Below, piece after piece: positions 7,117 through 39,954 of a DNA stretch of 48,375 nt. The stretch is from a virus. A program made the translations under genes and the position numbers. The stretch lies in IMG/VR virus record IMGVR_UViG_3300020731_000027, positions 1 to 48,375 of that record; one strand, written 5' to 3'. Each line of letters opens with the position of its first letter. Position 1 is the stretch's first letter. The notes below the pieces were generated by a model. That model searched no databases. It saw only the letters and a program-made list of their open reading frames with translations, and was not told the origin of the DNA.

Positions 7117-7848
7117 ATGATTGGAGTTTATAGAATAAAAAATAAAATTAATGAAAAATGTTATTATGGTTCATCAAAAGAAATTAAAAGGAGATGGTTA
7201 CGACATAAAAATGAATTAAGAAAAAATAAACATATAAATGATTTATTACAAAGAGCGTGGAACAAATATGGTGAGGATAATTTTATCTTTGAAATGGTTG
7301 AAGAATGTGATATAAATGACTTACTTGAAATAGAACAAAAATATTTGGATTTAAATCCTGAATATAATATTGGTTTAAATGCATGCGGTGGTGATAATAT
7401 TACTAAAAATCCAAATAAAGATTTAATTATTGAAAATATAAAAAGGGGTACTAAATTATGGAGAGATGGTTTATCAGATGAAGAAAGAAAAGAAAAATTA
7501 TCTAAACCTTTAGATAAAAATCCAAATTGGAAAGGTGGTAGTTCTTTTATTTATTGTAAATGTGGTAAAAGAATTGGTTATGGTCGTCAACATTGTCAAA
7601 AATGTAGACCAAGAAGTGAAAAAGATAATCCATTTTTCGGTAAAAAACACACAGAGGAATATAAAAAAAATGCATCAAAAAGACAAACTGGTGTATATAA
7701 TGGTGATCAAAATATTCCTATTATCATTGATAATATTGAATATAAATCTTTGGGTGACGCATCTAAAATATTAGAAATACCTATAACAACAATTAGATGG
7801 AGAGTTAAAAGTAAAAATAAAAAATTTCAAAATTACACATATAAATAA
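7117..7848 (+). CDS. GIY-YIG homing endonuclease with NUMOD3 motifs
   Basis: 243 residues. The N-terminal GIY-YIG nuclease has IGVYRIKNKINEKCYYGSS, an RWLRHKNELRKNKH helix with the Arg, and LLEIEQKYLD with the catalytic Glu. Around residues 140-150 lies a NUMOD3-type NPNWKGG. Then come CKCGKRIGYGRQHCQKC, a four-Cys zinc finger like that of I-TevI, a second NUMOD3 (NPFFGKKHTEE), and a C-terminal NUMOD1/HTH (LGDASKILEIPITTIRWRV). It cuts a long recognition site and spreads itself. It is free-standing and complete. Confidence 0.88.
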   Translation: MIGVYRIKNKINEKCYYGSSKEIKRRWLRHKNELRKNKHINDLLQRAWNKYGEDNFIFEMVEECDINDLLEIEQKYLDLNPEYNIGLNACGGDNITKNPNKDLIIENIKRGTKLWRDGLSDEERKEKLSKPLDKNPNWKGGSSFIYCKCGKRIGYGRQHCQKCRPRSEKDNPFFGKKHTEEYKKNASKRQTGVYNGDQNIPIIIDNIEYKSLGDASKILEIPITTIRWRVKSKNKKFQNYTYK

Positions 7849-11255: not shown

Positions 11256-13130
11256 ATGGAGACACTATTAGAACAGATTTTTGATTATGCGGTTATTACA
11301 CCATTTAAGAATTATAGTGATTTAAGTGAAAGACGTAAATCAATGAATACTTTTGTGGGTGAAATTGATGAAATTGATGATGATGAAGATTTTTTTGGTG
11401 AAGGATTTAAAAAAAGTAAAATCAGACTTGTAAATAGTGAAAATAAAATTGGTAAATTTGTTATTTTAACTCATAGAGAACCAAAGAAGGATACCAAATT
11501 CTTTTATAGTGGGGTTGAAAATCTTGGTGAAAAAATTCAGATAAACTTTGCATATAAACATCCTAGTGTCAATACAAATAGTTTATATACAAATAAGGAA
11601 GAAACCATAAAAAAACATTTCATTAACCCATTTTCCGAGGTTAATTTAATTAGATTGAGTAGATCTATTCGTATTAAAGGTGATAGAATTACTATTAAAA
11701 TATATAGACAAGAAAAAAAGAGAGATATTTTTTGTAGATTTTATCGCAAAGTAACATCTGTCCATTCAGTAACAATTGATAAAAATTTTAATTTTATCAC
11801 TCTTTCTATAAAAAAAACTTCAAATTCAAATAAAAAAATTTTTAGAAAAAATTCATTTAAAACATTTCAACAAATTATCACAACAAATTATGGACTATTT
11901 GGTAAGAAAACAAATTTAATCCCATCACATTATGATGAATTAACTAAAGATTTTGATAATATCTTTAATGATGAAGAATTTTATGATGTGGTATGTCGTG
12001 AATTAGGAATTACAAGAACTGATGTTACCGATAGACACAACTTTTTTGATTCATTTATAAAAAAGTTTGTTGAACGTAAAGGTATTAAAGTACCTAATGA
12101 TTATAAAGACCTTTTAATTAATTTTTACCCAACACAGAAATTCTTAAAAAAGAATGAAAATAAATTAATTGCTAGTATTTTAGATTATTTTGGATATAAA
12201 TCCAAATCAACAATTAAATTATTTCATTTAGTACCTAATATTGATATTAGTTTTTTTATTCTTGTATGTAGTTTAATTGGTAATGATTATTCAAAGTATA
12301 TTGCTAATTTAAGGTTAGAACTGTTTAAATTAGAAAATAAAAAAGAAAGAAATAGTGGAAAACAAAAAGAACTACATAATAAATCATTTTATCGTGAAAT
12401 AAATAATAATAATAACTTAATATTGGAAGACAAAGAAAAAGAAAATCTTATACATATATTAAATTCAATTGAAAATATAAACAATGTAGATGCATTTATA
12501 GGTGAATATATTGATCATCTTATGATGATTAGAAAAATAAGAGATTATATTCCGGAATTTATTATTAGATCTAAGACATATTCTGATTTCAATACTGAAC
12601 ATCTTGAATTATCTAAGATGATGTTGGAAATAAGAAAGGGTTGGGTGATAGAATATGAATTTAATGAAAAGATGGTAGAGGATGTTGAAACACCAATTGA
12701 GGTTCTTAAAGATAAGGAAAAAATAACCCTATATCCTCACATACTTAAAAGAGAAGAAGAGTATGCGGAAGAAGGTGCATTTATGCATCATTGTGTTGGT
12801 ACTTATGCAGATAGACAAAGTTCTATTATCATTTCATTAAGAACTGAAGATAAATCAGATAGAGTAACTTCTGAATTTTTAACACAAACAGGAATGAGAG
12901 TACAATCAAGACATTTCTGTAATGCAGATCCACCAGAATATTTTAAAATTGCATTGGAATTATTATGTGATAAGACCAATAAATATGCAAGGTATGGTAT
13001 GTTAAATTCATTGTCAAAAAAGAAAGTTAGGGCAAAGATTAATGGTATTGAAGTTAAATCTGAAATACCACCACCACGAACAGATATCGAATTTAACAGG
13101 GCATGGCTTGGAGAACAATTTTTTATATAA
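11256..13130 (+). CDS. PcfJ-like protein
   Basis: 624 residues from METLLEQIFDYAV. The N-terminal 450 residues are helical and of unknown function. From about residue 490 there is a PcfJ-type domain: LYPHILKREEEYAEEG, FMHHCVGTYADRQSSIIISL (Cys at 513), SEFLTQTGMRVQSRHFCNAD, then a final helix. PcfJ is named for an enterococcal conjugation plasmid gene; members are widespread in phages and plasmids and lack a proven activity. The conserved HHCVG..Y and SIIISLR segments suggest a catalytic or nucleotide-binding pocket. It has its own promoter. Confidence 0.7.
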   Translation: METLLEQIFDYAVITPFKNYSDLSERRKSMNTFVGEIDEIDDDEDFFGEGFKKSKIRLVNSENKIGKFVILTHREPKKDTKFFYSGVENLGEKIQINFAYKHPSVNTNSLYTNKEETIKKHFINPFSEVNLIRLSRSIRIKGDRITIKIYRQEKKRDIFCRFYRKVTSVHSVTIDKNFNFITLSIKKTSNSNKKIFRKNSFKTFQQIITTNYGLFGKKTNLIPSHYDELTKDFDNIFNDEEFYDVVCRELGITRTDVTDRHNFFDSFIKKFVERKGIKVPNDYKDLLINFYPTQKFLKKNENKLIASILDYFGYKSKSTIKLFHLVPNIDISFFILVCSLIGNDYSKYIANLRLELFKLENKKERNSGKQKELHNKSFYREINNNNNLILEDKEKENLIHILNSIENINNVDAFIGEYIDHLMMIRKIRDYIPEFIIRSKTYSDFNTEHLELSKMMLEIRKGWVIEYEFNEKMVEDVETPIEVLKDKEKITLYPHILKREEEYAEEGAFMHHCVGTYADRQSSIIISLRTEDKSDRVTSEFLTQTGMRVQSRHFCNADPPEYFKIALELLCDKTNKYARYGMLNSLSKKKVRAKINGIEVKSEIPPPRTDIEFNRAWLGEQFFI

Positions 13131-17825: not shown

Positions 17826-18497
17826 ATGGCACGTATTGATGAACTTCGTAAACAACATCCAGATTTAAATGTCTCTTTTTTAGACATCATTGTCAGTTTA
17901 GACCCAACAAGTACTTACAAGTACACCGACTTCATTATTAAGTCAATTAAAAAAGAAGTCAATATTGATGAAGTTAAAAGAGAGTTAGCTTCTCACTTCT
18001 TAACAAAAAAAGAATCCGAATGTCTTAGTTTGTTTGAAGAACATTCCAAAGCAAAACGTTTGGAAAAACTTGATATCACTCAATACAAGTCTTTTGAGGA
18101 TTTGGATATCGCAGTTAAGAAAGCTGACGAAGCAGTTAAATTGAAGCGTCTTGAGAAAGAAGTTGCAAAACTTTATGAAACTGAGGATTGGTTAGTTTTA
18201 ACACCATTGAGTTATGAAGCATCTAAATCATATGGTGCAAATACCAAATGGTGTGTAACACAAGAATCACATTACAAACGTTATCAAGATAGTCATAGAA
18301 TTTTCTTCATTTTAAGTAAGAAAACAAATGATAAATTCGCTGTGTCTAGAGAATTTAATGATCCAAAAAATATCCAAGCTTGGTTGGCTGATGATGAGGA
18401 AACTTCACCAATGTTGTTACCAATACCTTTCGATGTAATGGGTAAAATCATTGAGGAAGTGAAGAAACCAAAAGAACAATTATATAACACAAAATAG
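17826..18497 (+). CDS. TKWC-motif phage protein, short paralogue
   Basis: 223 residues. The N-terminal helical half (SFLDIIVSLDPTSTYKYTDF) and a coiled segment lead to EDWLVLTPLSYEASKSYG, ANTKWCVTQ, HRIFFILSKKTNDKFAVS and AWLADDEETSP. The same order occurs in the 495-residue protein at 36561, so the two are paralogues. The Cys in TKWC, the Tyr 9-12 residues later and the I-F-F-I strand with a following Lys recall the PcfJ C-terminal layout. The function is unknown. Confidence 0.65.
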   Translation: MARIDELRKQHPDLNVSFLDIIVSLDPTSTYKYTDFIIKSIKKEVNIDEVKRELASHFLTKKESECLSLFEEHSKAKRLEKLDITQYKSFEDLDIAVKKADEAVKLKRLEKEVAKLYETEDWLVLTPLSYEASKSYGANTKWCVTQESHYKRYQDSHRIFFILSKKTNDKFAVSREFNDPKNIQAWLADDEETSPMLLPIPFDVMGKIIEEVKKPKEQLYNTK

Positions 18498-18511
18498 GAT
18501 TTTCAGAAAAA

Positions 18512-18751
18512 GTGTTTCCGGAAATTGTAAGACACCCTACTAATTGTCAATTAATAACTCATAGTGAAAATATTAAAAAAAGTAGAAAAAATAATGATAG
18601 TATAATTATATTAAATGATTTATTTGAAAGAATAAAAAAATGGGATATTGATTATTATGAACAAGAAAAATGTCTTTGTTTAATCATTTCATATCAAAAT
18701 GGTGAAAGGTATGACAAAAAAAATTATATAAAAAATTATTTTGAAAATTAA
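18512..18751 (+). pseudogene. HNH endonuclease C-terminal fragment
   Basis: 79 residues from a GTG, FPEIVRHPTNCQLITHSEN then IKKSRKNN..LNDLFERIKKW. The H-P-x-N-x-x-x-I-T-H-S-E-N-x-x-K-S pattern is the second half of an HNH motif, followed by the tail of small phage HNH nucleases. The zinc-binding and catalytic first half is missing, the frame running back only to the TAG that ends the TKWC gene. It is a remnant unless translated from GTG for another purpose. Confidence 0.5.
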
Positions 18752-18772
18752 AAATAATAACTTATATTTGTA

Positions 18773-18780
18773 TAAATAAA
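18773..18780 (+). promoter_or_regulatory. -7 box TATATTTG
   Basis: TATATTTG nine bases before the ATG at 18790. This places the true start of the metallophosphoesterase upstream of the interrupting stop. Confidence 0.65.
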
Positions 18781-18789
18781 ATTAAATTA

Positions 18790-19454
18790 ATGAATAAAAT
18801 TATTTTGTCCGAGGATTCCAATGTTTGGATTACCTCGGACACTTAACACACTTTTCACATAAAAATATATGTCGTGGTGTAACCAATTGGAGAACTGAAG
18901 ATGGAAAAATACCAATAGAACAAACAAGGGATTTTCAAAATATTGATGAAATGAATAATGCGATTGTTAATAATATTAATAATGTTGCAGGTCAGGATGA
19001 TATTTTAATTTGTTTGGGTGACTGGTCATTTGGTGGTCTCGAACAAATCTTTAATTTTCATGAAAGATTAATTTGTAAAAATATACATTTGATATATGGC
19101 AATCATGACCATCATATTGAAAATAATAGGGAAAATTGTGGAGATTTATTTCTTTCAACATCTCATTATAAAGTTTTTCAATACTGTGGTCGTAACTTCA
19201 AAGTTATGCATTACCCAATTAGTTCATGGGATGGTTTAAATAAAGGTCATATTCATCTTCATGGACATGTACATTTACCAAATCATTTGAAATTTGGTAA
19301 AGGTAAAAAAATGGATGTTGGTATGGATGGTCATCCAGAATTCAGACCTTACAATTTAAAAACAGAAATTATTCCCTTAATGGATAAAAGAGAAATAAAA
19401 TCTGATCTTTTATTTGACCATCATACTGATGATATGAAAAATGTCGTTGGATAA
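18790..19454 (+). CDS. Metallophosphoesterase interrupted by a 5-nt TAACA insertion at the DxH motif
   Basis: From 18790 the frame reads MNKIILSEDSNVWITSDT and stops at TAA 18844-18846. Skipping exactly 5 bases (18844-18848) continues with HFSHKNICRGVTNW, giving SDTHFSH, the conserved first metal motif. Then follow LICLGDWSFGG (GD), IYGNHDHH (GNHD), MHYPISSW and HLHGHVH (GHxH). The joined protein has 219 residues, normal for phage calcineurin-like phosphoesterases. Takeoff codon ACT and the codon just before resumption, ACA, both encode Thr, so a ribosomal hop would be sequence-matched. Otherwise it is a mutation. A TTG start at 18825 in the second frame would lack the metal Asp. Confidence 0.75.
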
Positions 19455-21327: not shown

Positions 21328-21485
21328 ATGGCAATATACAGAGCACCGGAAAACATAGCATTAAGAAATAGGAATAGAATGTCCGTATTTTTAGCTGGCA
21401 GTATCGAAAAGAAAAAAATTTGGTTAATGGTAAGGAAGTAAGAAAACCATTTAAATTAAAAAGAAAAAAAGATTTGGGTAATTAA
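21328..21485 (+). pseudogene. Nucleoside 2-deoxyribosyltransferase relic
   Basis: The frame from 21328 reads MAIYRAPENIALRNRN then MSVFLAGSIEKKKIWLMV and stops at 21441. S-V-F-L-A-G-S-I-E is the substrate-loop start of the phage Nuc_deoxyri_tr2 family, in which about 120 further residues with catalytic Asp and Glu should follow. Another frame, ending at 21485, has NGKEVRKPFKLKRKKDLGN, an intact-looking C-terminus. An internal deletion seems to have removed the catalytic centre. Confidence 0.5.
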
Positions 21486-21496
21486 AATTTATCACT

Positions 21497-21504
21497 TATA
21501 TTTG
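21497..21504 (+). promoter_or_regulatory. -7 box TATATTTG
   Basis: TATATTTG 21 bases before the ATG at 21526. Confidence 0.6.
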
Positions 21505-21525
21505 TATAACATTAAAAAAAAATAA

Positions 21526-22557
21526 ATGAACAATCAATGGGTTAAAACCTCTAATGATTTCTACATTAGAGAAGTTTCACAGAACGTGGAAAAATTAGAA
21601 AGGGGGGTTTATAAATTAAATCTAAATGAGAAAACTGGTGAATTATATGTTACACTTATTGACGATTCATTTAAACTTCCATCTAAGGTATATGGTATTG
21701 AATCTAATTTTATTAATCGTGTTAAGAAAACATACGATAGTACCAGTTCAAACTTGGGTATCCTTATGAATGGGGTTAAAGGTACTGGTAAAACAGTTAC
21801 CGCAAAACAAATTTGTAATTTATTAGAATTACCAGTTATTATTATTCATAAGGGATATAATAATATACCAAATTTTATTAATGATATTCAACAAAATGTT
21901 ATTATATTTGTTGATGAATTTGAAAAAGTTTTTAATCAAAGAGAAAATAAAGATGAAGAAATCTTAACCATTATGGATGGTGCTTTGGATAATGGTTATC
22001 GTAAGGTGTTTATATTTACAACAAATAACTTATACATCAATCAAAATCTTTTACAACGTCCAGGTCGTATTAGATATTTAAAGACATATAAAGATTTAAC
22101 ATTATCTGTTATTACAGAAATTGTTGAAGATAGATTGGTACACAAAGACCTTAAAGAATGTACAGTTGATTTCATTTCAACATTGGAAACTATTTCTGTT
22201 GATATTGTTAATGCAGTAATTGATGAAGTTAATATTCACAATGAAGATCCATTGAACTTTAAAGATGTCTTCAATATTAAAATGTTGGATGATAAATTTA
22301 ATGTGTTTATCACCAAACAACCAAATAATCTTACTGAGTTATATAGAGGTGATGCAACAATCTCACCAAGAAAAATAACAATGGATTCAATTGGTGATGA
22401 ATTCTATGTAAATGACGTATATCTTGGTGAAATTTTGTCTGTTTTATCTAATGATACATTTATCATTGAAGAAACAGATAAGGACAATAACGTGAAACAT
22501 GTTCAATATAGTGTTGAACCAGCAAAACAAAAACATTTTTCATTCATGTCATATTAA
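21526..22557 (+). CDS. AAA+ ATPase
   Basis: 343 residues. Walker A GVKGTGKT at 83-90, Walker B VIIFVDEFEK, sensor 1 FIFTTNN and an arginine-finger stretch QRPGRIRY place it in the classic AAA group. Residues 1-60 and the C-terminal 100 (strand-rich, with DEFYVNDVYLGEIL) are unlike known adaptors. The likely role is remodelling a phage or host protein complex. The two other AAA+ genes in the window (34671, 44190) are different subtypes. Confidence 0.8.
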   Translation: MNNQWVKTSNDFYIREVSQNVEKLERGVYKLNLNEKTGELYVTLIDDSFKLPSKVYGIESNFINRVKKTYDSTSSNLGILMNGVKGTGKTVTAKQICNLLELPVIIIHKGYNNIPNFINDIQQNVIIFVDEFEKVFNQRENKDEEILTIMDGALDNGYRKVFIFTTNNLYINQNLLQRPGRIRYLKTYKDLTLSVITEIVEDRLVHKDLKECTVDFISTLETISVDIVNAVIDEVNIHNEDPLNFKDVFNIKMLDDKFNVFITKQPNNLTELYRGDATISPRKITMDSIGDEFYVNDVYLGEILSVLSNDTFIIEETDKDNNVKHVQYSVEPAKQKHFSFMSY

Positions 22558-22567
22558 AATTTAAATT

Positions 22568-23017
22568 ATGGAATTTTTATCTATTTTTTCAGCAGTCTTT
22601 TTTTTATGTTTTTTTTCCATTATATTGGCAACAATATTAACCAATTATGGTGGTTATAAATACTATAAATCAACTTATGAAAAGTTGGTTAACAAAGATT
22701 TTATCTTTGAATATAGAACCAATCTTGAGGGTTTAAATGATATTTATACCTTTACTCATAAAGAGAAAAATACTTCATTATTATCTAATGATGATGATAG
22801 TAATATTTTAATTTTTATTAAAGAGAATGATAGTATATCAATTAAATTAAGTGGTGGTGATTTGGAGTACATTCATAATGGATCATTAACTTATTTTGAC
22901 CCATATACCTTATATTGGTATCTTAAATTTAAGATATGGTTTAATAATAATAAAAAAGATTTCACTAAAACTTTTAATGAAAGATTTGATGAAGTTTTTC
23001 CTAAAAAAGTTGGTTGA
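22568..23017 (+). CDS. Membrane-anchored unknown protein
   Basis: 149 residues with one N-terminal span (IFSAVFFLCFFSIILATIL) and a soluble, strand-rich remainder (FIFEYRTNLEGLNDIYTFTH). A second hydrophobic YTLYWYLKFKIWF may lie on the membrane. It begins 10 bases after the AAA+ gene and could be its membrane partner. No family is recognised. Confidence 0.5.
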   Translation: MEFLSIFSAVFFLCFFSIILATILTNYGGYKYYKSTYEKLVNKDFIFEYRTNLEGLNDIYTFTHKEKNTSLLSNDDDSNILIFIKENDSISIKLSGGDLEYIHNGSLTYFDPYTLYWYLKFKIWFNNNKKDFTKTFNERFDEVFPKKVG

Positions 23018-23040
23018 TAAAAAATTATCCCTTATATTTG
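23010..23040 (+). promoter_or_regulatory. Bacteroidota-type promoter
   Basis: TTG 23010-23012, 20 bases, TATATTTG 23033-23040. It starts inside the end of the upstream gene and drives NAMPT. Confidence 0.65.
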
Positions 23041-23067
23041 CATAACAATAAAAATAAAAGTAAAAAA

Positions 23068-23898
23068 ATGGAAAAGAATCCCTTGTTATTAACAGATGGT
23101 TATAAAACCTCTCATCACAAAATGTATCCAGAGAATACAACTTGTGTTTATTCAAATTTCACATTAAGAAATGTGAAATACATGCCAGAAAATGCAAAAC
23201 AAATCGTTGTGTTTGGTGCTCAGTATACAATGAAGTATATTGACGAAATCTATAAAAAGAATTTCTTCGATAAACCAAAAGAACAAGTTATCGGTGAAGC
23301 TAAGAAATACCTTTCAAGTTATTTGGGTTGTGACTATGATGTTACACACTTTGAAAAACTTCATGATTTGGGTTATTTACCTATTCGTGTTAAGACTTTG
23401 AAAGAAGGTACTATTGTTGGTGAAAAAATACCAGTATTGACAATATATAACACTCACCCTGAGTTCTTCTGGTTACCAAACTTCCTTGAAACATTGATTT
23501 CAAGTTTGATATGGAAACCAGTACATTCCGCATCATTGGCATTTGGTTATAAAAAAATATTAACCGATTGGGCAAAGAAAACCGATAAAAATAATCTTGG
23601 TTTTGTTAATTTCCAAGGTCATGATTTTAGTTTCAGAGGGATGCAACATCCTGAAAGTGCAATATCTTCAGGTTTAGGTTTCTTGACCAGTTTCTATGGT
23701 ACAGATACAATCCCTGCATTACAAGCATCGCAATATTATTACAATTCTGAAAACGTTGGGTTTAGTGTTCCGGCGACAGAACATTCTATTTCATGTTCAC
23801 ATTTAGACTATAATGAAGTGGAAATAGAAGAAGAATATCTAGTTACATATGACGACAACAATAATAAAATCTCAGAAATTTTAATAAAGATGGTGTAA
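23068..23898 (+). CDS. nadV: Nicotinamide phosphoribosyltransferase (NAMPT / Namat-like), N-terminal part
   Basis: 276 residues from MEKNPLLLTDGYKTSHHKMY, the family's opening. Further family blocks follow: VYSNFTLRN, EGTIVGEKIPVLTI, ETLISSLIWKPVHSASLAFG, NFQGHDFSFRGMQHPESAIS, and SVPATEHSISCSH with the active-site His. The frame then leaves the family (LVTYDDNNNKISEILIKMV) and stops. The enzyme joins nicotinamide to PRPP to give NMN; in phage NARP1 the related Namat joins nicotinamide to ADP-ribose pyrophosphate to give NAD+. The second part starts 84 bases on. The start at 23014 is rejected because it precedes the -7 box. Confidence 0.88.
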   Translation: MEKNPLLLTDGYKTSHHKMYPENTTCVYSNFTLRNVKYMPENAKQIVVFGAQYTMKYIDEIYKKNFFDKPKEQVIGEAKKYLSSYLGCDYDVTHFEKLHDLGYLPIRVKTLKEGTIVGEKIPVLTIYNTHPEFFWLPNFLETLISSLIWKPVHSASLAFGYKKILTDWAKKTDKNNLGFVNFQGHDFSFRGMQHPESAISSGLGFLTSFYGTDTIPALQASQYYYNSENVGFSVPATEHSISCSHLDYNEVEIEEEYLVTYDDNNNKISEILIKMV

Positions 23899-23981: not shown

Positions 23982-24860
23982 ATGAAAAAAGTAATTGAAA
24001 AAAGAAAAGTAGTTAAAAAAGTTATTAATGAGAGACCATATATAAGTCATATTCTCAAAACTTACCCAACTGGTATTGTTAGTTTAGTGTCAGATCAATT
24101 TGATTTATGGAAAATGATAACAGTATTTCTTCCGGAATTTAAAGACTTAATTCTTTCAAGAGATGGTAAATTGGTAATCAGACCTGATAGTGGTAATCCG
24201 GTGGATATTATTTGTGGAACTTACAATAAGGAAAAAGATGGTATTTTAATTCCTTGTGATGGGGGTTTTAATTCAAATAGTGGATTTAAAACCTCTGATT
24301 ATCCGAATAAACCTGATACTAAAGGGGTAATCGAATTACTTTGGGATGTATTTGGTGGTACTGTAAATGAACAAGGCTACAAGGTATTAGATCCACATAT
24401 TGGAGCAATCTATGGAGATTCAATAACATTGGAACGTGCAGATGAAATCTGTAGAAGATTGGAAGCAAAAGGGTTTGCATCAACAAACATTGTATTGGGT
24501 GTTGGTTCATATTCAATGGGTTACGCAACCAGAGATAACCAAGGTGGAGCAGTTAAGGCAACTTATGTTGAATTAACAAGTAACATTGGTAAATCAATTG
24601 GTGAAGTTGGAACAATGGATACTCCACAAGTAATCGGAAGGGTAATATTCAAAGACCCAATTACTGATGATGGTACAAAGAAATCTGCAAAGGGTCTTTT
24701 GTATGTCGGTAAAAATGAAAATGGTGAATATTACCTTGAAGATAATGTTTCTTGGGAGAAAGAACGTACTGGTGAATTAGAGACAATTTTTGATGATGGT
24801 GTTTTGGTTAAAGAAACTTCATTATCTGAGATAAGAGAAAGATTATCTCAATATCTTTAA
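23982..24860 (+). CDS. nadV: Nicotinamide phosphoribosyltransferase, C-terminal part
   Basis: 292 residues. After a lysine-rich start (MKKVIEKRKVVKKVINER) the NAMPT family resumes at ISHILKTYPTGIVSLVSDQF, with the D-x-W segment, KLVIRPDSGNP (phosphoribosyl site), IGAIYGDSITLERADEIC, and VLGVGSYSMGYATRDNQGGA. All core motifs of this half are present, so with the upstream part it could form a two-chain enzyme. The first residues and the 84-base gap are not part of the family. Confidence 0.85.
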   Translation: MKKVIEKRKVVKKVINERPYISHILKTYPTGIVSLVSDQFDLWKMITVFLPEFKDLILSRDGKLVIRPDSGNPVDIICGTYNKEKDGILIPCDGGFNSNSGFKTSDYPNKPDTKGVIELLWDVFGGTVNEQGYKVLDPHIGAIYGDSITLERADEICRRLEAKGFASTNIVLGVGSYSMGYATRDNQGGAVKATYVELTSNIGKSIGEVGTMDTPQVIGRVIFKDPITDDGTKKSAKGLLYVGKNENGEYYLEDNVSWEKERTGELETIFDDGVLVKETSLSEIRERLSQYL

Positions 24861-36560: not shown

Positions 36561-38048
36561 ATGTCAAATTACAAACAACTAAAGTCTAATCCGGAGTACA
36601 ACATCAGTTTGGTTGATGTTATGAGTTTTGTTACAAAAACAAATAAAGCAAAGTACCTTGAATTATTTTGTAAACTTTACAAGAATAAAAAAATAGGTGG
36701 TAAAAAAAATAATGTTTATGGTACATTGATTTCAAAAATTTTTGATATACCACAATCAGAGGTTGATATGTTAACATCGTTTTCAACATATATTCATTAT
36801 TTGATTACTGAAAATATGTCTGAAGATATAAAATTATTCCAAAAGTTTGTTAATTTAAATGAACGTGGTTTAATTGAAAAAAATGATGTATTAACATACA
36901 CATCAATTGATGAATTAAAGAACGAGGTTTCCAAATCTGAATCTAGACATATTGAGAAAGAAATGGAGAAACAAGTACAGAAAATTTCTGACGATGAAGA
37001 ATGGTTAGTATTAAGACCATTAACATATGAATCATCAAGAAAGTATGGTTCTAATACCAAATGGTGTACAACACATAATGAAAGAACATACTTTGATAAG
37101 TACACTAAGAATGGTATTTTAATTTATTTTATTAATAAAAAAACCGGTGTTAAAGTTGCTGTATTTAGGTCATTAAAACATAGTGATAGTAATAGTCTTG
37201 GTGGTGTTGCAAGAGAATTTTCATTTTGGGATCAGAAAGATGTTAGAATTGATTCAATGGAATCGGGATTACCTGATTATATTAAATCAATATTAATGGA
37301 GGAAATTAATAACAATCCTTATACTAACTTGGAAGTTTATGCAAAAAGAAATAAAGTTCAAGTACCAAAAGAAGAGGAATTTTTTAAGAAAAGAAGAACA
37401 ATTGGTGTAACTGAAATGGTAGTTAATGAAGAAGAACAAGAACCTGGTGGAGACGTACTTCCTGGTATGTTACCTGATATAAATTATGGTGAACTTGCTC
37501 ATGGAGTAGAAAATGATAGATTTGGTAGATTAGCACAACGTATTAATGATTTAACTAACAATGATAGAGTAAGACGTGTTAGGGAGTTAATGACTGATGA
37601 TGTTGAAGATAGACCTGTAGATCAACCACAACCGACTAGATTAAGAGTTGCCGATCTTGTTGATGCAATTGCTAGACGACAAGAATATATTCATAATCTT
37701 GAAGTGGATCGAATTCAAGAAGCAAATGAAGATGTTGAGAGTGAATTTATTTCTCAAATGAGACAATTGGAAGAACAACATCAACAAGAAGAATATGTTG
37801 ACCGAGATTTTATTTCTGAAATGGAATCAAGAGAAGATGAAGAAGAAGACTATGGTGTTGAAGCTGAACCAATGCCAGAAGATGGTGAAGATATGGTGGG
37901 AGAAATTGATGGTGATGTTGAGGAATCAGTTAATAATTTTCTAACAGAAATGAGTGACAGACTTGGAAGATCAGGTTGGATTACAACAAATATTACCATA
38001 GAACGTCCACAATTGAGAGATGAATCACAAGATGAACAAGCAGGATAA
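36561..38048 (+). CDS. TKWC-motif phage protein, long paralogue with acidic tail
   Basis: 495 residues. Residues 1-250 parallel the 223-residue protein at 17826: NISLVDVMSFVTKTNKAKYL, then DDEEWLVLRPLTYESSRKYG, SNTKWCTTHN, ILIYFINKKTGVKVAVFRSL and SFWDQKDVRIDS. Residues 275-495 are a long, repetitive, acidic and Gln-rich tail (EEYVDRDFISEMESREDEEE), likely coiled or disordered. The tail might bind a partner or DNA-binding protein. The function of the core domain is unknown. Confidence 0.65.
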   Translation: MSNYKQLKSNPEYNISLVDVMSFVTKTNKAKYLELFCKLYKNKKIGGKKNNVYGTLISKIFDIPQSEVDMLTSFSTYIHYLITENMSEDIKLFQKFVNLNERGLIEKNDVLTYTSIDELKNEVSKSESRHIEKEMEKQVQKISDDEEWLVLRPLTYESSRKYGSNTKWCTTHNERTYFDKYTKNGILIYFINKKTGVKVAVFRSLKHSDSNSLGGVAREFSFWDQKDVRIDSMESGLPDYIKSILMEEINNNPYTNLEVYAKRNKVQVPKEEEFFKKRRTIGVTEMVVNEEEQEPGGDVLPGMLPDINYGELAHGVENDRFGRLAQRINDLTNNDRVRRVRELMTDDVEDRPVDQPQPTRLRVADLVDAIARRQEYIHNLEVDRIQEANEDVESEFISQMRQLEEQHQQEEYVDRDFISEMESREDEEEDYGVEAEPMPEDGEDMVGEIDGDVEESVNNFLTEMSDRLGRSGWITTNITIERPQLRDESQDEQAG

Positions 38049-38642: not shown

Positions 38643-39173
38643 ATGTCAATAAAGGAAAAAATTAATTATGATAAGTTGATTACTGAGGCAAAAATGGTTG
38701 CATATGTAACACATAAGAATATTATGTACGATATTTTTCCATATGAAAAACATATTGAAGATGTTGTAAATGTTCTTAAAGAACATGGTTATTCTGGTGA
38801 TGATATTATTGGAGGTTATTTACATGATACTATTGAAGATGGTAATTTAACTTATAGTAAAATTAAAAAGGTTTTTGGTTATAATGTTGCGGAAATTGTT
38901 TTAGCTTGTACTGATCCTTCAGATGTTAGAAACAGGAAAGAAAAAAAAGAAAGGGTAATGTTAAAACTTCAACAATATCCAAAAGCAAAACCTACTAAAC
39001 TTGCAGATAGAATTGCAAACATTGAACATGGAATAAGAATGGGTAATCATGATAAATCATTAATGTATTTGGAAGAACATGATGAGTTTAAAAATAAATT
39101 ATTTATTGATGGTGAACACACAACATTGTGGGATAGACTTGAAAAGTCTATTGAAATTTTAAAAAACAATTAA
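38643..39173 (+). CDS. HD-domain hydrolase, MESH1/SpoT-like
   Basis: 176 residues. THKNIMYDIFPYEKHIEDVV, then GGYLHDTIEDGNLTYSKIKK (H-D-x-x-E-D), EIVLACTDPSDVRNRKEKKE and TKLADRIANIEHGI. The H...HD...D arrangement with H-D-x-x-E-D matches ppGpp hydrolases (SpoT N-domain and small alarmone hydrolases), which cleave the 3' pyrophosphate of (p)ppGpp. In a phage it would suppress the stringent response. It starts 3 bases after the caspase-like gene, and its end overlaps the antisense HNH gene by 4. Confidence 0.75.
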   Translation: MSIKEKINYDKLITEAKMVAYVTHKNIMYDIFPYEKHIEDVVNVLKEHGYSGDDIIGGYLHDTIEDGNLTYSKIKKVFGYNVAEIVLACTDPSDVRNRKEKKERVMLKLQQYPKAKPTKLADRIANIEHGIRMGNHDKSLMYLEEHDEFKNKLFIDGEHTTLWDRLEKSIEILKNN

Positions 39174-39895
39174 AAAGAAAAAAATATCGAATCTATCATT
39201 TTTTTGTTTAAAACATAACGATAAAATGTAGTTTTAGTAAATTTTTTTGTTTTATTTATATATTCTAACGCATCTTTCATTGTGTTAAAAGTTAACAATA
39301 AAACATTATTTTCATTGTACATAAAAACTTTTTTTGATCTACCATTTTTTTCACCACTATTAGATAATGAAATTTTTTTATTTCTTTCTAAATGATTTGA
39401 CCAATCAAAATTTTTAAGTGATTTTGATAAATTATTTTTGTGACTATTTGTTTTTGGTTTATTTTTTAACGATTCAGATATTTTATTACGATGTTCTTTA
39501 GTTTTTTGTTTATTTTTAAATAGTTCACTTATTATTTTAATTTGTTTTTGAGATATTGTTTTATTTTTATGGTATTTTTTATTATTAATAATAATAAATT
39601 CACGTCTAGCTAATTTACATTCTTCATAAATTCTAGATGAATTAATTTTTTGGTTATTACCCATATGAACCATAGCAAAAAAAGCAAATGCCATTTCTTT
39701 GTTTCTATAAATTCTCCATAATAACCAATGAGCGATAAAATGTTCTCTGGCAGTTAAAAATATTAAATTGTTTTTTGAATCGGTTCCACCAAGACTTTTA
39801 GGTATAATATGGTGTTCTTCATAGTATTCATTTTTATTAATGATCCTTTTAGTTCTTGTTTCAATTAATTTATCATAATGTTTTTTATAGTCCAT
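39170..39895 (-). CDS. HNH homing endonuclease, antisense
   Basis: 241 residues from MDYKKHYDKLIETRTK. EYYEEHHIIPKSLGGTDSKN then NLIFLTAREHFIAHWLLWRI gives the HNH motif (H-H, N, H). The rest is basic with NUMOD3-like repeats (KTKEHRNKISESLKNKPKTN) and a C-terminal NUMOD/HTH (TFNTMKDALEYINKT). It is the only long leftward gene beyond 12 kb, inserted between two rightward units. A late-type element precedes it. The longer start at 39913 lies across that element. Confidence 0.85.
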   Translation of the reverse strand: MDYKKHYDKLIETRTKRIINKNEYYEEHHIIPKSLGGTDSKNNLIFLTAREHFIAHWLLWRIYRNKEMAFAFFAMVHMGNNQKINSSRIYEECKLARREFIIINNKKYHKNKTISQKQIKIISELFKNKQKTKEHRNKISESLKNKPKTNSHKNNLSKSLKNFDWSNHLERNKKISLSNSGEKNGRSKKVFMYNENNVLLLTFNTMKDALEYINKTKKFTKTTFYRYVLNKKMIDSIFFSF

Positions 39896-39910
39896 ATTAT
39901 ATAAATATAT
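39896..39910 (-). promoter_or_regulatory. Late-type ATATATTTATATAAT element (leftward)
   Basis: Read leftward, ATATATTTATATAAT abuts the HNH start codon. Confidence 0.45.
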
Positions 39911-39954
39911 CAATTACCATATGAATTTCATTTTTTTATTTAAAAAAAAAGAAT

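Follow-up and report, generated by a model that had tools for sequence, protein, structure and literature searches.

Is a phage metallophosphoesterase (MPE) gene with a stop codon inside its D-x-H metal motif a dead gene, or can it still give rise to one protein? This question is raised by a viral DNA stretch of 48,375 nucleotides (IMG/VR record IMGVR_UViG_3300020731_000027; the whole stretch is called the window here). On its plus strand, the 5′ coding part of the gene (MNKIILSEDSNVWITSDT, positions 18790–18843) starts at ATG 18790 and runs in frame into a TAA stop (18844–18846) directly after SDT. The 3′ coding part (18849–19454, stop included; HFSHKN...GDW...GNHD...HGHVH) lies in a different frame, which is open from CAC 18849 (HFSHKNICRGV...) up to TAA 19452–19454 and matches the phosphoesterase family phrog_547 (E 1.1e-34). 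The first-pass annotation, made from this sequence alone, had proposed that skipping the five bases TAACA (18844–18848), the first three of which are the stop, gives SDTHFSHKN, and this is exact: the skip restores the family sequence. It had also pointed out that the take-off codon ACT (18841–18843) and the codon before resumption, ACA (18846–18848), both encode threonine and that the remaining metal motifs are intact, and both observations are borne out. ACA is the first tRNA-Thr-compatible codon past take-off and is referred to below as the landing codon; the D-x-H, GD, GNHD and GHxH motifs are all present, the first of them dependent on the skip.

The proposed promoter and start likewise hold up. 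The sequence TATATTTG (18763–18770, plus strand) fits TAnnTTTG, which we take to be the −7 box of the Bacteroidetes-type promoter consensus, and the leader ahead of the MPE ATG reappears upstream of an ATPase gene at 21526. Thus, the box and the recurring leader make ATG 18790 a credible start, and NVWITSDT fits the N-termini of 53 relatives. An AT-rich leader is repeated before genes at 21464–21533, 12362–12424 and 18730–18797 and looks like a common promoter unit. A search of the window for tRNAs and Rfam families returned none.

Searching IMG/VR with the downstream part of the MPE, we obtained 56 relatives, 53 of which cover the gap site. All 53 read through it without interruption (SD[T/S]H) and resemble the window in their N-terminal part (NVWITSD), so the five extra bases are real relative to the family. 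Judged from the window and these near relatives alone, a private frameshift mutation could be the cause. An exact template for TAACA was sought by eye and the candidate rejected: ACACTTAAC and ACACTTTTC form merely a 7/9 near-repeat, and the parent frame is not produced.

Immediately 5′ of the take-off codon lies a hairpin (18806–18841, plus strand). Its arms occupy 18806–18814 (TGTCCGAGG) and 18833–18841 (CCTCGGACA), the whole being TGTCCGAGG-N18-CCTCGGACA in the predicted fold, with its last base serving as the first base of the take-off codon; the stop sits outside the stem. The 54 nt up to the stop have a calculated dG of −20.6 (z −5.3), the second most stable of the 54-nt folds in the 48 kb window. 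The codons used in the hairpin are rare in the window genome, where TCG, TCC, ACC, GAC and GAG make up 2%, 6%, 13%, 14% and 14%, respectively, of the codons for their amino acids. No comparable hairpin was present in 52 distinct uninterrupted relatives (best −10.8, mean −5.9 kcal/mol).

We then asked IMG/VR for the same arrangement elsewhere. A scan for the hairpin matched further phage MPE genes with the hairpin at the same position and a stop-bearing gap directly after it; unrelated palindromes (coding repeats, likely terminators) were also among the matches and were discarded. Two further scans ignored the hairpin: the first used GGACAC-N-TRR, a gap of 0–12 and HxxHxN, and the second had GAT in place of GAC. 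These hairpin-blind scans yielded 28 distinct interrupted MPE genes besides the window, and in 28/28 of them a strong hairpin runs up to the take-off codon, while the non-MPE matches had none. Together with the window and L236, which was found via its hairpin, the set comprises 30 genes. Thus, 29 phage MPE genes besides that of the window are interrupted by a gap with a stop at this codon boundary, and the window case is not a chance arrangement. The gaps measure 5 nt in 22 genes, 6 in five, 9 in two and 14 in one, and the stops are TAA (16), TAG (10) and TGA (4), with two stops in succession in the 9-nt gaps. As the scans demanded an ACN codon with a stop directly after it, neither of these features counts as independent evidence; the scans did not fix the gap length or the landing codon. 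All 30 genes come from metagenome records and are related, so the counts do not represent independent events.

Other collections and patterns gave no further cases. In the isolate-phage collection (tblastn), the matches listed contained only uninterrupted MPE genes and no gapped isolate; Henu5 seemed interrupted, but no hop element was found at its locus and it was rejected. A scan of genome contigs gave five chance matches, none in an MPE, and 693 kb (both strands counted) held no convincing non-MPE gene with the same arrangement. The pattern ACNTCNGAYACTTAACA had 86 matches, none of them in an MPE, and TCGGACAC followed after N0-9 by ACACTTTTCACAT had no match. In a tree, interrupted and uninterrupted MPE genes are interleaved, with the window and L306 placed among uninterrupted genes; seven changes are required, at least five of them forced by well supported branches. 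This shows repeated gain or loss but not rates, the two groups having been sampled differently. In the gene with the 14-nt gap (L302, 7520–8579) the frame also breaks after GNH and a LAGLIDADG endonuclease frame follows at once, possibly a second insertion in the same MPE gene.

Conservation of the hairpin is directly observed across the set. Its minimum free energy is −16.2 or lower in 30/30 interrupted genes and −14.0 or higher in 56 uninterrupted relatives, without overlap (p 1.4e-14). Over the basal eight stem pairs, 96% of cells are paired, and two-sided changes occur at 6/8 pairs (23 such cells against 4.9 in shuffles). The covariation score is 0.449, compared with 0.136 when shuffled and at most 0.073 when slid. 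This alignment joins arms taken from each gene's own fold and is therefore biased towards pairing, although the pair types (GC, AU, CG, UA and GU at one position) can be read straight from the sequences. The 3′ arm also codes for the conserved TSD, which restricts its variation. In L262 and L284 the arms lie 44 nt apart (9–30 nt elsewhere) with an inner stem present, which indicates that the basal stem is conserved and not the loop size.

The landing codons follow a rule of their own. They are ACN in 23 genes, GCN in five and ATN in two, and all of them pair with a tRNA-Thr NGU anticodon with at most one G·U. Position 2 is C in 28/30, at a C content of 13% of bases (P about 7e-18, genes treated as independent). 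Counting all frames, the landing codon is the first one past take-off with which tRNA-Thr can pair in 29/30 genes; the exception is L236, where ATA overlaps the take-off codon. A single landing rule fits gaps of 5, 6, 9 and 14 nt.

We therefore read the window MPE as a gene in which ribosomes would make a programmed, hairpin-assisted short hop across the stop, and give this reading, which rests on sequence comparison only, a probability of about 0.82. Starting at ATG 18790, the ribosome would reach the Thr codon ACU, at which point its A site is occupied by the stop UAA. The adjoining hairpin would refold behind the ribosome and pull the mRNA back, the peptidyl-tRNA-Thr would quit ACU and slide 5 nt to the first codon with which it can pair, ACA, and translation would restart at CAC, with the metal-binding DTH motif restored. 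Crossing by ribosomes and the pulling role of the hairpin are inferred, as is a single protein across the gap, for which we have conservation and no peptide, ribosome profile or reporter data.

Where gap and hairpin come from is suggested by the genes next to them. Directly upstream of the window MPE, ahead of its promoter, lies the tail of a decayed HNH-type endonuclease gene (18488–18751, plus strand; phrog_23051, E 1.7e-7) of 87 codons without a proper start, with its stop at 18749–18751; it is 60% identical to residues 231–311 of an intact 322-aa gene in L306. Relatives of this HNH gene immediately precede the interrupted MPE in L306 itself, in L293/L269 and, as a decayed remnant, in L283. 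The same place is taken by an unrelated LAGLIDADG family (phrog_4645) in L236, L260, L290 and L285/L295, with tails at contig ends in L242 and L259, and by a Vsr-like endonuclease (phrog_559) in L279. In L306, L236, L290, L242, L259 and L269 the endonuclease frame crosses the MPE start codon. Homing endonucleases of three families are thus observed at the MPE start in 11/30 interrupted genes and in 0/43 uninterrupted controls (Fisher p 1.5e-5, genes treated as independent); none of the 43 upstream frames of uninterrupted relatives matches any endonuclease family, and their loci lack relatives of these enzymes.

We lean, without great assurance, towards a homing-cassette origin of gap and hairpin. 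In this scenario, an endonuclease gene that had inserted directly ahead of the MPE would target a conserved MPE site, the gap would render the carrier's own MPE copy uncuttable, and hopping would rescue the protein; in the window the endonuclease would since have decayed to its tail. The immunity role of the gap is inferred and remains a conjecture, as no cleavage site is known and there are no cleavage data. A competing, doubtful but still possible account takes the hop as real but denies that it is a by-product of homing; it would be retained as a regulatory switch on the MPE level. No recognised endonuclease lies directly upstream in 19/30 interrupted genes, and the element outlasts endonuclease decay in the window and L283, as such a switch would have it; however, endonuclease adjacency is strongly enriched and is repeated with unrelated endonuclease families. 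We consider a wider proposal somewhat better founded than its denial: phage MPE genes carry a natural family of hairpin-powered stop-hops without long nascent-peptide signals, in which the tRNA moves on to whichever compatible codon comes first. Homing endonucleases that are unrelated to one another (HNH, LAGLIDADG, Vsr-like) would have repeatedly recruited this family as cassette self-immunity.

Some further observations concern other genes in the window. It holds two apparently intact homing endonuclease genes, one of GIY-YIG type (7117–7848, phrog_314) and one of HNH type (39170–39913, minus strand, phrog_655), so its phage is rich in such elements. Its nicotinamide phosphoribosyltransferase is split over two frames (N half 23014–23898, C half 23982–24860, phrog_448), between which NKRIKKEELDKYLFDGWNLGLL resembles, by eye, a homing endonuclease tail; the halves are separate families in PHROGs, so this split may be known. 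Two paralogues of the uncharacterised family phrog_17056 lie at 17826–18497 and 36561–38048, and one of them neighbours the MPE in relatives too.

Recoding without a hop, by −1 frameshifting or stop readthrough that leaves at least two extra residues between D and H, seems very improbable to us. Gaps of 6 and 9 nt preserve the reading frame and a −1 shift does reach the downstream frame of the 5-nt gaps, but gaps of 5, 6, 9 and 14 nt would demand separate mechanisms, and the 9-nt cases would require passage through two successive stops. Moreover, the products would disrupt the D-x-H metal motif, which all uninterrupted relatives keep, and the landing-codon rule would be left unexplained.

We give equally little credit to the possibility that the five bases are a frameshift mutation or an assembly artefact and that the MPE is dead. 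The 53 uninterrupted nearest relatives are what it would predict, and for the window there is no near-identical second copy available for comparison. Against it stand the 29 other genes that share the hairpin and are likewise interrupted by a stop gap at this codon boundary, and the finding of four elements in two metagenome records each (L229/L249, L240/L244, L269/L293 and L285/L295). In addition, dN/dS past the gap is 0.12 for L262/L284 and 0.14–0.32 in other pairs with unsaturated synonymous sites; by this measure, the coding sequence after the gap is under purifying selection. For the class of 30 genes, the comparative data already refute the broken-gene explanation.

Ribosomes would never meet the gap if it were cut out of the mRNA at the hairpin, an excision that RNA repair enzymes of the phage might carry out. 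The end of the hairpin would then be the cut point, and RNA ligase or polynucleotide kinase genes adjoin several of the MPEs; a putative RNA ligase is encoded in the window as well. Yet although the gaps differ greatly in both length and sequence, the codon before resumption is always tRNA-Thr-compatible and a stop is always present, and an excision enzyme needs neither, which leaves this explanation with hardly any standing. The neighbours of the remaining interrupted genes include polynucleotide kinase, RNA ligase, dNMP kinase, DNA methyltransferase and SmpB. The SmpB gene (PF01668, E 4e-43) lies directly upstream of the hop-containing MPE on a 321-kb contig (L238, 4160–4597, minus strand), and trans-translation could compete with slow termination at that hop site. 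Finally, translation of the downstream frame alone from an internal start can be all but set aside: TTG 18825 does begin a 209-codon frame in the window and in 13/30 genes the downstream frame has some NTG further upstream, but 17/30 have no NTG able to start that frame whole before its own stop (the next start lying beyond HxxHxN), the product would lack the metal Asp, and hairpin and landing codon would be left unexplained.

Efficient natural bypassing in bacteria rests almost wholly on one gene, T4 gene 60. Thirty diverse genes sharing one compact signal (hairpin, Thr codon, stop, short gap, compatible codon) would provide a minimal element for studying how ribosomes depart from and return to mRNA, and their natural variants already hint at the landing rule. 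If the endonuclease link is true, T4 gene 60 would be one case of a general strategy, in which the targets of selfish endonucleases are shielded by a skipped gap. Gene callers would label such MPE genes as broken, so others may hide in phage genomes. Judged from the open-access literature, these genes apparently give the earliest indication that short ribosome hops exist as a conserved natural family; an unpublished or subscription-only description is not excluded.

How does the element compare with known systems? The enzyme itself has the fold and metal motifs of AQ1575-type metallophosphoesterases (cd07390; structure 1xm7), whose isolate members, however, are uninterrupted; a structure prediction for the MPE built on 15 sequences was of poor quality (pLDDT 60) and was used solely to find 1xm7. 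The byp elements of Magnusiomyces mitochondria are likewise short inserts skipped in translation, with landing codons that are not always identical. In contrast to the MPE element, they are mitochondrial, involve an A site occupied by an unused codon and are described as largely context-independent (PMC5009743), whereas every MPE element has its hairpin and stop. Synthetic stop-hops and +5/+6 hops were described in test constructs by Weiss et al. 1987, here as summarised in a review (PMC5009743), and according to the same review no natural in-frame stop-hop was known. The 6-nt MPE cases (L289, ACU UGA ACU) have the same matched codons flanking a stop, with 9 nt per amino acid, and the window resembles a +5 hop; unlike the synthetic hops, those of the MPE genes go with a conserved natural hairpin.

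The closest comparison is T4 gene 60, where a 5′ stem-loop is proposed to pull the mRNA by zippering up on exit from the ribosome (PMC5009743, PMC11194080), and where a stop occupies the A site and the tRNA re-pairs downstream (PMC5009743). The T4 gap may have protected gene 60 from a nuclease that spread the neighbouring endonuclease gene (PMC5009743), and a defective HNH gene, mobA, lies between genes 39 and 60 (PMC3014915). Both systems have a stop right after take-off (ACT TAA at 18841–18846 in the window), a 5′ stem-loop, a matching codon at which the tRNA could re-pair and a homing endonuclease neighbour with a proposed protective role of the gap. Bypassing, as suggested by the first-pass annotation, is the reading best backed by comparative data, as the stop, hairpin, landing codon and intact downstream coding are conserved in the 30 genes, although the hairpin at 18806–18841 and the endonuclease tail at 18488–18748 had escaped it. 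Its analogy to T4 gene 60 is sound as to how the hop would work, but the gap length, take-off stem-loop and nascent peptide that define the T4 signal are not matched. The MPE hairpin is flush with take-off, whereas that of T4 lies further upstream; the window codons ACT and ACA are synonymous but not identical (tRNA-Thr-compatible landing, 30/30). The MPE gap of 5–14 nt (5 in the window) replaces one of 50 nt with an SD-like GAG 6 nt 5′ of landing, and there is no take-off stem-loop containing the take-off codon and stop. The KKYK signal, about 25–30 residues from the P site in T4, is also missing: about 16–32 codons precede the MPE gaps (18 residues in the window), and the upstream peptides vary between genes. 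Lastly, the T4 element occurs in one phage, whereas the MPE element is found in many phages, within one enzyme family.
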